In this document: piece after piece, positions 21,153-28,109 of the stretch
Position numbering within the stretch: the stretch's first letter is position 1
How the letters are laid out: each line of letters opens with the position of its first letter
Source of the DNA: Paracidobacterium acidisoli
Lineage (GTDB): Bacteria; Acidobacteriota; Terriglobia; Terriglobales; Acidobacteriaceae
NCBI RefSeq assembly: GCF_003428625.2
Contig: NZ_QVQT02000002.1
Location: forward strand, 248,001 to 312,000
Reading direction: 5' to 3'
DNA length: 64,000 nucleotides
Notes under the pieces: model-generated
The model's input: only the letters and a program-made list of their open reading frames with translations
What the model was told of the DNA's origin: nothing
The model's database searches: none
Made by a program: the position numbers and the translations under genes

Positions 21153-22574
21153 CTAAACGGAGGCCATGGCGCGCTCTCTCAGTGGCGCGAGCCGGGTCTG
21201 TTCCAGCTCATCGCGGTAGAACATGTTATAGGTGTCGAACGGAATGAGCCGCCTGGCGTCCGGGTGAGCGATGTGGATGCAGGTTTTCTTTATCGACCGC
21301 AGATCGAAGCCCTGTGCGTCGATGAACTGCACGATCAGCACACGGAAGAGATTCTCATAGCTCAGACTGGCCGGGGCGGAGATCCGCGGCAGGCAGCAGA
21401 GCAGCTCGCGCAGGGTGTTTGCCTGCGACTGCGGCGAGTGGTTCGTCGCGAAGAGTCTGAAGATGTGATCGGTGACCGCCTGATCTTTCTCGAAGAGGAT
21501 GGTGTTGCGTCCTCCGTTGATCAGTACATCGGGATCGACCATCCCCGTCAGCGGAACGACCTTGCCGCCCAGCTTCAGTGCGTAGGCCATGGCCAGCGTA
21601 TCCGGATGACAGGGTACGGGGATGAGGTCTTCGGGGCGAAAGGCGCTGGTCTGCTCCAGAATGCGCCGCCGCACCTCGCTCAGCGTGAGACGGTGCACTG
21701 CGGGATCGTAACCCTGCAGCCGTCCGGCGCGCTGCACCGGCTGAAAGGTGACGCCGCGGACACAGGACTGCTGCAGAGCGAAGTCGATGATGCTGCCCAT
21801 CTCATCGTCGTTCACGCCGCGCTCGACGGTGACGACCAGCGTGGTGGAGACGTTCAGCCGGTTCAGCTTTTCGAGCGCCTTCTCGCGGATGGAGCGCAGG
21901 TCCGCTCCGCGAAGCTGCATCAGCGGATCGCGGCGCAACGAGTCGAACTGCAGGTAGAGCTCGAACTGCGGCATACAGGCGGCGAGCTGCTCGGCGAAGC
22001 CATCTTCCTGTGCGATGCGGATGCCGTTTGTATTTACCATCAGGTGTTTGATCGGGCGGCGCTTTGCCGCGTCGAGCACTCGGAAGAAATCGGGATGGAG
22101 GGTGGGCTCGCCGCCGGAGATCTGCACGACATCGGGCTCGAGCTCGTTGGCGACGACCATGTCCATCATGGCCTCGATCTGCTCCAGTGTGCGATACGTT
22201 GTGCGGTGGGTTCCGCTTTCGGCGTAGCAGACGGGGCAGTTGAGATTGCAGGCGTCGCAGATTTCGATGAGTGAGAGGCAGGAGTGCTGCTCGTGGTCGG
22301 GGCAGAGGCCGCAGTCATAGGGGCAGCCGTACTTTACCGGCGTGTTGTAGTGCTGCGGCATCTCCGGAGGCTTGATGAAGACCTCGCGGCAGCGGCGGTA
22401 ATAGTCGATGTCGTCGGCCATCAGCACGCGCTCAAATCCATGCTCCGGGCAGCGCTTGAACATGTAGACGCTGCCGTCTTCAAAGACGATCTTTGCATCG
22501 ATCCGGCGGAAGCATACCGTGCAGATCGACACGGCGGTGTCGTAGAAGAGATAATCGCGCGTCTTTGCCATCAC
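21153..22574 (-). CDS. Tes/MJ0619-type radical SAM enzyme
   Basis: The 473-residue radical SAM protein has an N-terminal rubredoxin-like cysteine set (C18, C21, C42 in CPEHG), then CPYDCGLCPDHEQHSC (84-99), the radical SAM CNLNCPVC cluster (C109, C113, C116) and the SAM-binding VQISGGEPTLHPDF. The C-terminus has a KKTCIHIAHPDARRLIPFDTYN motif. This multi-cluster layout is that of MJ0619-like enzymes. One branch (Tes) joins lipid tails into membrane-spanning tetraethers; others act as pterin methylases. Its ATG overlaps the stop of the small membrane gene by 4 bp, and an Lgt paralogue leads the operon. A lipid substrate is inferred from this context. Confidence 0.85.
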   Translation of the reverse strand: MMAKTRDYLFYDTAVSICTVCFRRIDAKIVFEDGSVYMFKRCPEHGFERVLMADDIDYYRRCREVFIKPPEMPQHYNTPVKYGCPYDCGLCPDHEQHSCLSLIEICDACNLNCPVCYAESGTHRTTYRTLEQIEAMMDMVVANELEPDVVQISGGEPTLHPDFFRVLDAAKRRPIKHLMVNTNGIRIAQEDGFAEQLAACMPQFELYLQFDSLRRDPLMQLRGADLRSIREKALEKLNRLNVSTTLVVTVERGVNDDEMGSIIDFALQQSCVRGVTFQPVQRAGRLQGYDPAVHRLTLSEVRRRILEQTSAFRPEDLIPVPCHPDTLAMAYALKLGGKVVPLTGMVDPDVLINGGRNTILFEKDQAVTDHIFRLFATNHSPQSQANTLRELLCCLPRISAPASLSYENLFRVLIVQFIDAQGFDLRSIKKTCIHIAHPDARRLIPFDTYNMFYRDELEQTRLAPLRERAMASV

Positions 22575-22852
22575 CGATCTCCGCTTCGATCCACATTTTG
22601 AAAGAAGCGTTTATATATTGCGAGGATAAGTGCGAAAAATCCCAGAAGGACGAGACCTGCAAAGCTCAGTACGATCGCAAGCAATTCGGTCCATCCGGCA
22701 ATTGCGAGAAATGGTTGAAATATATTCGAAGACCGTAATCCCGTGACGGCAAGGAAATTCACCCCGCACAATCCAAGCGAGACGGTAAAGACCGAAGCCA
22801 GCACTGCCGCTGCCTTCGCAAGTCCCGTCCGGTTTTCCGACTGCAGTTTCAT
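22571..22852 (-). CDS. Small two-helix membrane protein
   Basis: The 93-residue protein has two predicted membrane helices, AAAVLASVFTVSLGLCGVNFLAV and LLAIVLSFAGLVLLGFFALILAI, and a short charged tail KRFFQNVDRSGDR. I know no family. It is 21 bp behind the Lgt-like gene and its stop overlaps the start of the radical SAM gene (ATGA), so it is the middle gene of a tight three-gene operon. It may recruit the radical SAM enzyme to the membrane. That role is inferred only. Confidence 0.65.
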   Translation of the reverse strand: MKLQSENRTGLAKAAAVLASVFTVSLGLCGVNFLAVTGLRSSNIFQPFLAIAGWTELLAIVLSFAGLVLLGFFALILAIYKRFFQNVDRSGDR

Positions 22853-22873
22853 GCGCTCCTCCGGAGTGACCGG

Positions 22874-23596
22874 TCAGACGGCTTCGATTTGCCGCCGGTC
22901 GTTTCCTTCCATGATTCCCAGCGCCGCCAATCCCGCCACGCAGGCCCACTGAATCACATTCATTCCACCGATCAGAGGCTGCGGCTTCAGAAAGTCGATC
23001 CCCAGCCTCCATGCCAGATAGCCGGCCAGAAACAGCCGGAAGATGCGTCCATTTGTATGTGGCCGCCTGCCATAACGCCACAGGATACCTGCCAGAGCCG
23101 TCAGAAACAGGACTTCGTACAACTGCGCCGGGTGCCGTCGCACGCCGTCGCCGAAATCGACGCCCCAGGGCAGCGAAGTCGCTTTTCCGTAGGTGTCGTC
23201 GGCCAGCCCCGCGAAGAAGCAGCCGATGCGCCCGATGGCAATCCCGATACAGAGCGGAACCGCAAAGAGGTCTCCGGTGCGCTCGCCGATTCCGGACGCG
23301 GACTTTATCATTTCCACCGCGAGCCAGCCGCCGAGCAGACCGCCCACGATGGTTTTGCCGCCCGGCAGGAAGAGACTGTGCCAGCTCAACCCTGTTCGCG
23401 GAGCCTGCTCCAGCAGTCCCAGCACCCGGCTGCCGGCGAGCGCTCCAACTGCAGCGGCGGCAAGCAGAATCCATCGCTGTTCGGTGGTCAGGAAGTCCTG
23501 CTGCCGGCTGCGGCTGCGCCGGTAGAAGGCATAGCCGCCCACGTATCCGAGCACTTCAAAGAGCGGATGAAGCTCAGGATGAAAGAGAGAGTGCAA
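22874..23596 (-). CDS. Lgt-like prolipoprotein diacylglyceryl transferase paralogue
   Basis: The 240-residue multi-helix protein belongs to the Lgt family: KTIVGGLLGGWLAVEMIK, the GRIGCFFAGLADDTYGKATSLPWGVDFGDGVRRHPAQLYE core containing the Lgt signature, and a final helix pair. Lgt moves diacylglycerol from phosphatidylglycerol to the lipobox cysteine. It starts at a TTG (23596) with TACACT 8 nt upstream. It lacks the long N-terminal region of housekeeping Lgt and sits at the head of a radical SAM operon. It may be a specialised glycerolipid-handling paralogue rather than the essential Lgt; the window cannot decide. Confidence 0.82.
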   Translation of the reverse strand: MHSLFHPELHPLFEVLGYVGGYAFYRRSRSRQQDFLTTEQRWILLAAAAVGALAGSRVLGLLEQAPRTGLSWHSLFLPGGKTIVGGLLGGWLAVEMIKSASGIGERTGDLFAVPLCIGIAIGRIGCFFAGLADDTYGKATSLPWGVDFGDGVRRHPAQLYEVLFLTALAGILWRYGRRPHTNGRIFRLFLAGYLAWRLGIDFLKPQPLIGGMNVIQWACVAGLAALGIMEGNDRRQIEAV

Positions 23597-23604
23597 GCCG
23601 TATC

Positions 23605-23610
23605 AGTGTA
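23605..23610 (-). promoter_or_regulatory. -10 element of the Lgt/radical SAM operon
   Basis: TACACT on the minus strand, 8 nt before the TTG at 23596. It supports the TTG start and a leaderless operon transcript. Confidence 0.4.
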
Positions 23611-26943: not shown

Positions 26944-27612
26944 TCACTTCTTCGCGCGTGCGACGGTGTGTGGGGACTGCGTCTGCGCCTGGGCTTCGTC
27001 AAGCATGGAGTAGAGCTTGTTGAAGTCGAGCACCTGTTCGTAGTTGGGAGCGCCGGAGCCGGCCTTGTCGATCACGATCCACACGGTCGGCGTCTCATGC
27101 ACGCCCATGCGGTCGCCGAGCGCGACGTCGGCGCGCACATCGGCTTCGAGCCTGCCCTGGGGATCGATGACGAAGGGCAGATCGATGCCGCGATCCTTTG
27201 CAAATTTCGCTGTGGCGCTCTGCAGGTCGGCCTTCGTTTCGATGTTGACCTGGTTGGCGAAGACGGCGTCGCGGTACTCATCGCCGGTCTTCTTCGCCTT
27301 CGTGTCGAACCAGCGGGCGTAGACGGCGGCCTGGAAGCTCCAGTTGTGCATGGGGAGCGGGAAGTCGTGGCGCACCCAGGCGGCGTGGTACTGCTCGGCG
27401 GCCTGCTTCAGAATGGGGTTTTCGTGCGCGCACATCGGGCACTCGAGGTCGGCGAACTCGACGAGGGCGATGTGGTATCCGGGCGGTACTTTGAGCGCGG
27501 AGGTATCGTGCACCTGCGCCGGTACCTGCTGGGCCTGCGCCGGTCGAAGACCGCAGTACACAACAAAGAGGGCAGCCAAAACGAAAAGTGCAAAACGGCG
27601 TCTACTCACCAT
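26944..27612 (-). CDS. DsbA-family periplasmic thioredoxin-like protein
   Basis: The 222-residue protein has a signal peptide (LFVLAALFVVYCGLRPAQAQ), then a thioredoxin fold with the CPMC redox site in VEFADLECPMCAHENP and a HETPTVWIVID cis-Pro loop. A helical insertion lies between. It may oxidise or isomerise exported proteins. A VKOR-like gene diverges from it 92 bp away, giving the electron-acceptor partner expected for bacterial disulfide formation. TACATT lies 7 nt before the ATG. Confidence 0.9.
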   Translation of the reverse strand: MVSRRRFALFVLAALFVVYCGLRPAQAQQVPAQVHDTSALKVPPGYHIALVEFADLECPMCAHENPILKQAAEQYHAAWVRHDFPLPMHNWSFQAAVYARWFDTKAKKTGDEYRDAVFANQVNIETKADLQSATAKFAKDRGIDLPFVIDPQGRLEADVRADVALGDRMGVHETPTVWIVIDKAGSGAPNYEQVLDFNKLYSMLDEAQAQTQSPHTVARAKK

Positions 27613-27619
27613 GCCTTCT

Positions 27620-27625
27620 AATGTA
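27620..27625 (-). promoter_or_regulatory. -10 element of the dsbA-like gene
   Basis: TACATT on the minus strand with a 7-nt gap to the ATG at 27612, giving a probable leaderless transcript. Confidence 0.4.
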
Positions 27626-27704
27626 TCGCTTTGCGACGGTCCTGCGGAAATCGGGATTTCGGCCCGGGCCGCTGCTACTCTGAACTCGGGGGTTCGATAG
27701 ACGG

Positions 27705-28109
27705 ATGCGCGTGCTGCTTGTGATTCTCGCTCTGGCCGGTCTGGCGGTCGCTTCGTATACTCTGCACCTGCACTACAGCCATGCGGTCGAGTTCTGCGAC
27801 ATCAACTCGCACTGGGACTGCGGCACGGTCAACCACAGCCGCTACTCGCTCTTCCACGGGATTCCGGTAGCGGTGATCGGCATGATCGGGTACGTGGTGC
27901 TGGCGGTGCTGGCGCTGCTGCGGCAGAAGGCGCTGACGCTGATTGCGGCGCTGGCGGGCCTGGGCTTTGCGCTCTACCTGACCAACATCGAAGCGCACGT
28001 GCTCGAAACCTGGTGCCTGTACTGCGTGACCTCGCAGTGCATTATCGCGGTGATTACGCTGCTCTCGATCGTCTGGCTGTTCCTCGGGCGCAGACCGAAG
28101 ACGGCGTAG
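27705..28109 (+). CDS. Vitamin K epoxide reductase (VKOR) family protein
   Basis: The 134-residue membrane protein has four helices and both VKOR cysteine pairs: C27 and C36 (loop pair, FCDINSHWDCGTVNHS) and the active-site CxxC in WCLYCVTSQC. VKOR homologues reoxidise DsbA via quinones. The divergent DsbA-like gene supports that pairing. It stands without a fused thioredoxin domain. Confidence 0.9.
   Translation: MRVLLVILALAGLAVASYTLHLHYSHAVEFCDINSHWDCGTVNHSRYSLFHGIPVAVIGMIGYVVLAVLALLRQKALTLIAALAGLGFALYLTNIEAHVLETWCLYCVTSQCIIAVITLLSIVWLFLGRRPKTA

Follow-up and report, generated by a model that had tools for sequence, protein, structure and literature searches.

The closest described relatives of the system reported here are two radical S-adenosylmethionine (SAM) enzymes, tetraether synthase (Tes, also GDGT-MAS) and TrsS, together with the diacylglyceryl transferase Lgt. 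The M. jannaschii protein MJ0619 is itself a tetraether synthase; the enzyme binds two phospholipids, carries a lipid-sulfur intermediate on its C-terminal cluster and stays active in Met439 and Tyr459 variants (Lloyd et al., PMC9433317), and its older pterin-methylase annotation could not be corroborated by the same authors. Bacterial homologues of Tes, acidobacterial ones included, have been proposed for branched glycerol dialkyl glycerol tetraethers (brGDGTs) (PMC8941075), and the bacterial membrane-spanning lipid synthase Mss, known here by description only, reportedly has a Tes-like architecture (PMC13274423). All tested variants of R143, H103 and R239 of E. coli Lgt failed (PMC4728403). 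In this study we analyzed a 64,000-nucleotide stretch of the soil bacterium Paracidobacterium acidisoli (GCF_003428625.2, NZ_QVQT02000002.1, 248,001-312,000 of the forward strand), referred to as the window, whose own positions are used throughout. It holds a three-gene unit that joins a Tes-related radical SAM enzyme to an Lgt paralogue and a small membrane protein with a conserved cysteine. We consider it probable that the unit modifies lipids or membrane proteins and is not a Tes system. No published description of an Lgt-radical SAM unit was found in the literature searched, with most subscription journals outside it.

Organization of the three-gene unit

All three genes lie on the minus strand, in the order Lgt-like gene, small membrane protein gene, radical SAM gene. 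The first (22874..23596) encodes an Lgt-family (PF01790) paralogue of 240 amino acids (aa) from a TTG start, assigned from its open reading frame (ORF), Pfam and an AlphaFold2 model. The second (22571..22852) encodes a 93-aa membrane protein, placed by its ORF and aligned relatives in a family whose first helix carries an invariant cysteine (K...GLCG). The third (21153..22574) encodes a 473-aa radical SAM protein of the MJ0619/Tes/TrsS superfamily, which its ORF, profiles, a tree and an AlphaFold2 model place in an Lgt-linked clade named group A. A gap of 21 bases separates the Lgt-like gene from the 93-aa gene, a Shine-Dalgarno-like GGAGGAG precedes the ATG of the latter, and the stop of the 93-aa ORF overlaps the start of the radical SAM gene. 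The operon that an earlier, sequence-only reading of this DNA had described is thus borne out, and so are its Lgt paralogue, its cysteine-cluster layout and its MJ0619-superfamily assignment, as detailed below.

A radical SAM enzyme related to Tes but outside it

Pfam recognizes PF04055 and PF23545 (Zn_ribbon_HMPTM) in the 473-aa protein, and its best solved relative is MJ0619 (E 5e-70), to which it is 31% identical over 486 columns in a four-sequence comparison (E 3e-71). The AlphaFold2 model (mean predicted local distance difference test score, pLDDT, 86.6) has 7tom/7tol as its best PDB match, with a TMq of 0.80, and the next distinct match reaches only 0.38. By E value the fold match to GDGT-MAS (1e-37) covers the whole protein and is followed by the peptide maturases SkfB and SuiB (2e-11). 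The likeness to Tes extends over the overall fold, the rubredoxin site, the N-terminal auxiliary cluster site and the radical SAM motif.

The curated family models nevertheless exclude it. The protein scores 275.9 bits on the Tes model NF045702, below the cut-off of 450, and 306.9 bits on the TrsS model NF045646, which is its top-scoring NCBIfam model and aligns nearly end to end, but whose cut-off is 490. Both cut-offs were failed as well by all five relatives scored, from Brevibacillus, Dyella, a Thalassarchaeaceae archaeon, Chitinophagales and Leptolyngbya. Four acidobacterial proteins (L065, L070, L081 and L083) passed the Tes cut-off with 493-619 bits, and one protein, L067, passed that of TrsS; this scoring covered four of the ten acidobacterial rows labelled Tes in our tree, in which TrsS is represented by one row.

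In the 57-row tree all 26 rows of the window protein's family form one clade (support 100/99), separate from Tes, where the sequence-only reading had placed the protein. Group A, its sister groups B and E and the rows L053 and L066 are split (100/99) from Tes, the TrsS row and group D. L053 and L066 are Lgt-linked and sit on long, unsure branches; L066 (G219) comes from a very divergent trio, likewise ordered Lgt, small membrane protein, radical SAM, that falls outside the main clade. The TrsS-passing L067 falls on the Tes side and keeps the cysteines C455 and C470 that group A replaces. A Tes or TrsS identity of the 473-aa protein was therefore rejected on the cut-offs, the separate clade and this replacement. 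Methylpterin methylase was rejected too, and the earlier contrast of Tes with that enzyme falls away because MJ0619 itself is tetraether synthase (PMC9433317). A graspetide link raised by one literature match was rejected as unrelated. Judged by its sequence, the protein is a radical SAM enzyme related to tetraether synthase yet distinct from Tes.

The residues at the metal sites were compared between 26 group A rows and 11 Tes rows, in MJ0619 numbering unless stated, and conservation was also read from an alignment of 62 sequences from about 100 loci. From the N terminus, the window protein carries a zinc-ribbon or rubredoxin-like region (PF23545; CX2CX20CX2H; residues 10-53, 22416..22547), the auxiliary cluster motif C84-H94 (CX3CX2CX2H; 22293..22325) and the radical SAM motif C109-C116 (CX3CX2C; 22227..22250), all minus strand and in the spacing of MJ0619 (PMC9433317). 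Group A keeps the rubredoxin ligands (H36 in 24/26) and the N-cluster ligands (26/26), and the radical SAM motif is invariant in all 62 sequences.

The C-terminal part differs. Every group A row has S or T in place of Cys455, D or E in place of Cys470, and I or F in place of Tyr459, whereas all 11 Tes rows have the MJ0619 residue at each; Met439 is found in 15 of the 26 group A rows and is V in the window protein. At the Cys470 place the window protein has Asp447 (codon 21234..21236, minus strand; D in 21 and E in 5 rows). We infer that C338, C455 and C470 are the ligands of the MJ0619 C-terminal cluster. The loss of C455 and C470 weighs most, because the Met439 and Tyr459 variants of MJ0619 stayed active and the lipid-sulfur intermediate sits on that cluster. 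C338 has a cysteine in 11/26 rows, in a stretch that this one alignment aligns loosely. In the numbering of the window protein, the cysteines C322, C393, C394 and C432 are near-invariant in the 62 sequences; L032, which was left out of them, has R at 322. In a profile comparison C338 follows C322 by four columns, and C432 stands one place after C455. Since C322 and C432 are so near the MJ0619 cysteines and position 470 is acidic only, the cluster is possibly held by shifted cysteines and a carboxylate, and we speak of altered ligands rather than of a lost cluster. C322 and C432 are shared with the one TrsS row. Residues 358-399, which hold C393 and C394, have pLDDT below 50 in the AlphaFold2 model and leave these two cysteines unplaced.

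The Lgt-family partner

The 240-aa protein scores 92.1 bits on the Pfam LGT family PF01790, well above its gathering score of 24.9, but reaches only 51.5 bits on TIGR00544, whose cut-off is 118.9. Its AlphaFold2 model (mean pLDDT 87.6) has E. coli Lgt 5azb as the sole match at E <= 0.001 (E 6e-7, TMq 0.65). By alignment to E. coli Lgt, whose N-terminal segment is weak at only 4 bits, the equivalents of R143, Y235 and R239 are present in 81/81 family proteins. In the window protein R143 corresponds to Arg123 (codon 23228..23230, minus strand) and R239 to R197. H103 of the HGGL motif, in contrast, is kept in none of the 81 and is replaced by V in 71, L in 5 and I in 5 (Val84 in the window protein, codon 23345..23347, minus strand). 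The family has conserved residues of its own, K98 in 81/81, E95 in 80/81 and H10 in 77/81. The 81-row count leaves out L066, L108, L170 and the genome's two other Lgt homologues, L072 and L073. These have Y and M at the H103 position, and the absence of H103 alone is thus not diagnostic of the paralogue. Among ten carrier genomes, six of the seven bacterial ones possess one high-scoring and one low-scoring PF01790 protein. A Shewanella carrier has two high-scoring matches, and the archaeal carriers have the low-scoring one only.

Linkage and distribution of the unit

Of 21 acidobacterial loci, 19 have the Lgt-like gene upstream and on the same strand, in one case at a distance of about 2.5 kb; the 19 matches include two short fragments, and one of the two loci without a match lies at a contig end. 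A scan of the genome collection detected at least 577 radical SAM relatives, of which the best 80 were kept as loci. The Lgt-like gene stands at most 1.5 kb upstream on the same strand in 64 of these best 80. In the rest it is divergent and directly downstream (two loci) or further off or on the other strand (two), while four have less than 500 bases of upstream sequence and eight lack the gene. Chance adjacency was rejected on these two counts. The other recurrent ORF clusters in the loci were only shadow ORFs over the cassette genes, or small membrane proteins. By its linkage to an Lgt paralogue and to small cysteine proteins the family differs from Tes.

Among 396 Acidobacteriota genomes, the radical SAM orthologue is present in 22, P. 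acidisoli included, and the Lgt-like gene (>=263 bits) also in 22, with 20 shared. The exceptions are G354 and G015, both at contig ends, G233 (L041), with a shortened radical SAM gene and no Lgt-like gene, and G193, which has a sister radical SAM protein near its Lgt-like gene. The other acidobacterial orthologues are 60-86% identical to the window protein, one in pieces and one shortened. G167 (L080) has only a C-terminal radical SAM fragment and is not among the 22, and the neighbourhood of G123, a near copy of G165, was left out. The shortened L041, L032 (G094) with R for C322 and the L080 fragment may represent decay.

By record title, the best 80 loci come from Acidobacteriota, Bacillota, Pseudomonadota, Bacteroidota, Planctomycetota, Cyanobacteriota, Omnitrophota and Elusimicrobiota, among others, and include three Poseidoniales/Euryarchaeota records; many of the records are metagenome-assembled, so single taxon assignments may be wrong. 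Cultured carrier genera include Paenibacillus, Dyella and Collimonas. The three archaeal genomes (L121, L136 and L161), which may be incomplete, each gave a single PF01790 match, the cassette Lgt, and the four archaeal control genomes gave none. Two of the three archaeal contigs carry what we take to be archaeal-type genes, a sliding clamp (L136) and a PurP-type ligase (L161).

Small membrane proteins and their conserved cysteine

No Pfam family above cut-off was found for the 93-aa protein or for the other small proteins tried. Small proteins of two or three helices are a recurrent feature of the loci, encoded either immediately after the radical SAM gene or in the interval that separates it from the Lgt-like gene. 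The cysteine of the K...GLCG family, Cys29 in the window protein (codon 22766..22768, minus strand), is present in 15/15 aligned relatives and the lysine in 14/15. A second family, with a helix ending in NAACFG, has the cysteine in 35/37; of the remaining two proteins, one lacks the residue and the other is truncated at a contig end. Matches with E >1e-4 and identical copies were dropped, as were those of L040 and L099, whose ORF overlapped the radical SAM gene over a long stretch.

Small transmembrane (TM) proteins were counted in 99 loci: one in 38, two in 8, three in 6 and none detected in 47. The occurrence of up to three per unit makes them look more like substrates than subunits. A cysteine late in or just after a TM helix is present in 62 of 63 small slot proteins (60-200 aa, at least two predicted TM helices). 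Among the remaining small TM proteins of these loci, taken as a control, the figure was 30 of 45 (Fisher p 4e-6, without correction for kinship). By the same rule, 75 of 89 slot membrane proteins of all sizes, unrelated ones included, have the cysteine; L099 and L106 were dropped from this count as duplicates.

Some proteobacterial units have lipobox-bearing lipoproteins in the slot, judged by eye (L132, L141, L144, L151 and L156), and DUF547 proteins occupy it in L132 (by Pfam) and in L134 and L141 (45-63% identity). In L132, L134 and L141 no Lgt-like gene is in view, L132 having less than 500 bases of upstream sequence; the DUF547-type protein adjoins the radical SAM gene, and two of the three have a lipobox by eye. 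In a Holophagae locus (L114, 8323-10786) several more small proteins with three helices, noted among the control ORFs, follow one another downstream of the unit. Elsewhere in the window, at 26944-28109, a minus-strand thioredoxin-like gene lies beside a plus-strand VKOR-like membrane gene, judged by eye.

Membrane-spanning lipids and a second homologue

Only 6 of the 44 genomes in the family of the window organism have the radical SAM orthologue; we take this family to belong to Acidobacteria subdivision 1, in keeping with a nearest named match in Granulicella (83%). In 17 cultures from subdivisions 1 and 3, the membrane-spanning iso-diabolic acid amounted to 20-40% of the fatty acids, a study cited in PMC13274423. 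All 44 genomes have some match at E 2.4e-25 or better, and the weaker ones inspected (own genome, G121 and G265) were all 696-719 aa proteins of the group D type. The one in P. acidisoli, L071 (G000:C10:93408-94277), is a second MJ0619-superfamily protein of 696 aa. It scores 328 bits on the Tes model, below 450, with an alignment that spans almost all of the model. All six group D rows retain C338, C455, C470, Met439 and Tyr459, and the N-cluster cysteines have been lost in the group. Because every family genome has a match of about L071 strength and the C-terminal residues of Tes are kept, L071 appears likelier than the window gene to be the iso-diabolic acid enzyme, going by distribution and residues. 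The earlier suggestion that the unit makes Terriglobial membrane-spanning lipids as a Tes is not supported, and of its lipid role the connection to lipids is what we retain, as a probable one.

By identity the E. aggregans Tes homologue (32%; PMC8941075) may belong to group A or to group D, since the identity to MJ0619 is 31% for the window protein and 30% for L071.

Proposed function and alternatives

The gene order, linkage, clade, residue conservation, predicted folds and conserved cysteine are established by the results above, and from here on we infer every catalytic step, acceptor, topology and product. We tentatively propose, with more doubt than confidence in the specific mechanism, a dedicated membrane lipidation unit. 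The Lgt-like protein, through its conserved arginine core, would take a diacylglyceryl group from phosphatidylglycerol and place it on the lipobox-like Cys29, towards the outer end of the first TM helix of its partner, with no need for signal-peptide cleavage. The radical SAM enzyme would then make a 5'-deoxyadenosyl radical and functionalize a carbon of the attached or a neighbouring lipid. Several observations weigh against this proposal. Eight of the 80 loci lack the Lgt-like gene although they have enough upstream sequence to show it, and no small TM protein was detected in 47 of the 99 loci, in some for lack of sequence. The Shewanella locus L134 has neither an Lgt-like gene nor a lipobox in its downstream protein, and the two PF01790 matches of its genome, at 264 and 223 bits, both look canonical. 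The small protein of L119 has no cysteine, the GLCG and NAACFG motifs are only lipobox-like, and the control cysteine rate was 30/45, with some control proteins themselves members of arrays. More positive charge was found on the N side of 58 of the 75 cysteine helices, a topology figure biased by selection of the helix with the largest N-side charge excess. The small proteins may instead be anchors for the enzymes, and the chemistry of the radical SAM enzyme is only guessed from its relatives.

The earlier reading, in which a Tes-type synthase joins lipid tails into membrane-spanning or ether lipids and the Lgt paralogue acts on a glycerolipid, seems improbable. The superfamily and fold are common with GDGT-MAS, the N-terminal metal sites are kept, the C-terminal cluster may persist with other ligands, and acidobacterial Tes homologues are among those proposed for brGDGTs (PMC8941075); against this, the protein fails the Tes cut-off (276 against 450 bits), belongs to a separate clade, has C455 and C470 replaced in 26/26 rows, occurs in 6 of 44 family genomes although iso-diabolic acid was 20-40% of fatty acids in the 17 cultures (PMC13274423), and shares its genome with the more Tes-like L071, whose C-terminal positions are intact. 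An RiPP-like reading (that of ribosomally synthesized and post-translationally modified peptides) is unlikely. Here the small protein would itself be the substrate of the radical SAM enzyme, its conserved cysteine being turned, for example, into a thioether, and the Lgt-like protein would anchor the product or complete it. Up to three small-protein copies beside the radical SAM gene and the fold matches to SkfB and SuiB speak for it, but the GDGT-MAS match is far stronger (E 1e-37 vs 2e-11) and covers the whole protein, and the cysteine sits in a helix, probably towards the outer face and away from a cytosolic enzyme.

A less likely alternative is that the Lgt paralogue moves diacylglyceryl to a small-molecule or lipid acceptor and the radical SAM enzyme modifies the resulting unusual glycerolipid, with the small proteins anchoring or chaperoning that enzyme at the membrane. 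The loss of the acceptor-side H103 in 81/81 with retention of the arginine core would fit such a route, as would the many loci without a detectable small protein and the binding of two phospholipids by Tes (PMC9433317). It does not account well for a cysteine column fixed in two small-protein families, for several small proteins in one unit, or for lipoproteins in the slot of some units. The membrane lipidation unit is the preferred, if tentative, proposal.

Implications

A published screen for Tes used Methanococcus aeolicus Tes as query with E <1e-30 and identity >=30% (PMC11868695). The window protein, at 31% identity and E 3e-71 to MJ0619, would probably pass such a screen without being Tes, and bacterial Tes counts used to suggest brGDGT producers may include the Lgt-linked family. 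A widespread unit is now named and can be tested in cultured genera, and its cassette places Lgt-family proteins in archaea. More speculatively, and with low probability in our view, the unit may represent a second, so far unrecognized protein-lipidation pathway, in which the Lgt paralogue puts a diacylglyceryl thioether, or its archaeal equivalent, on an uncleaved cysteine of small multi-pass proteins and the Tes-like enzyme forms a C-C or C-S bond on the chains. If true, bacterial phyla and marine Poseidoniales archaea would have a chemically new type of lipid anchor, one that might span or cross-link the membrane.

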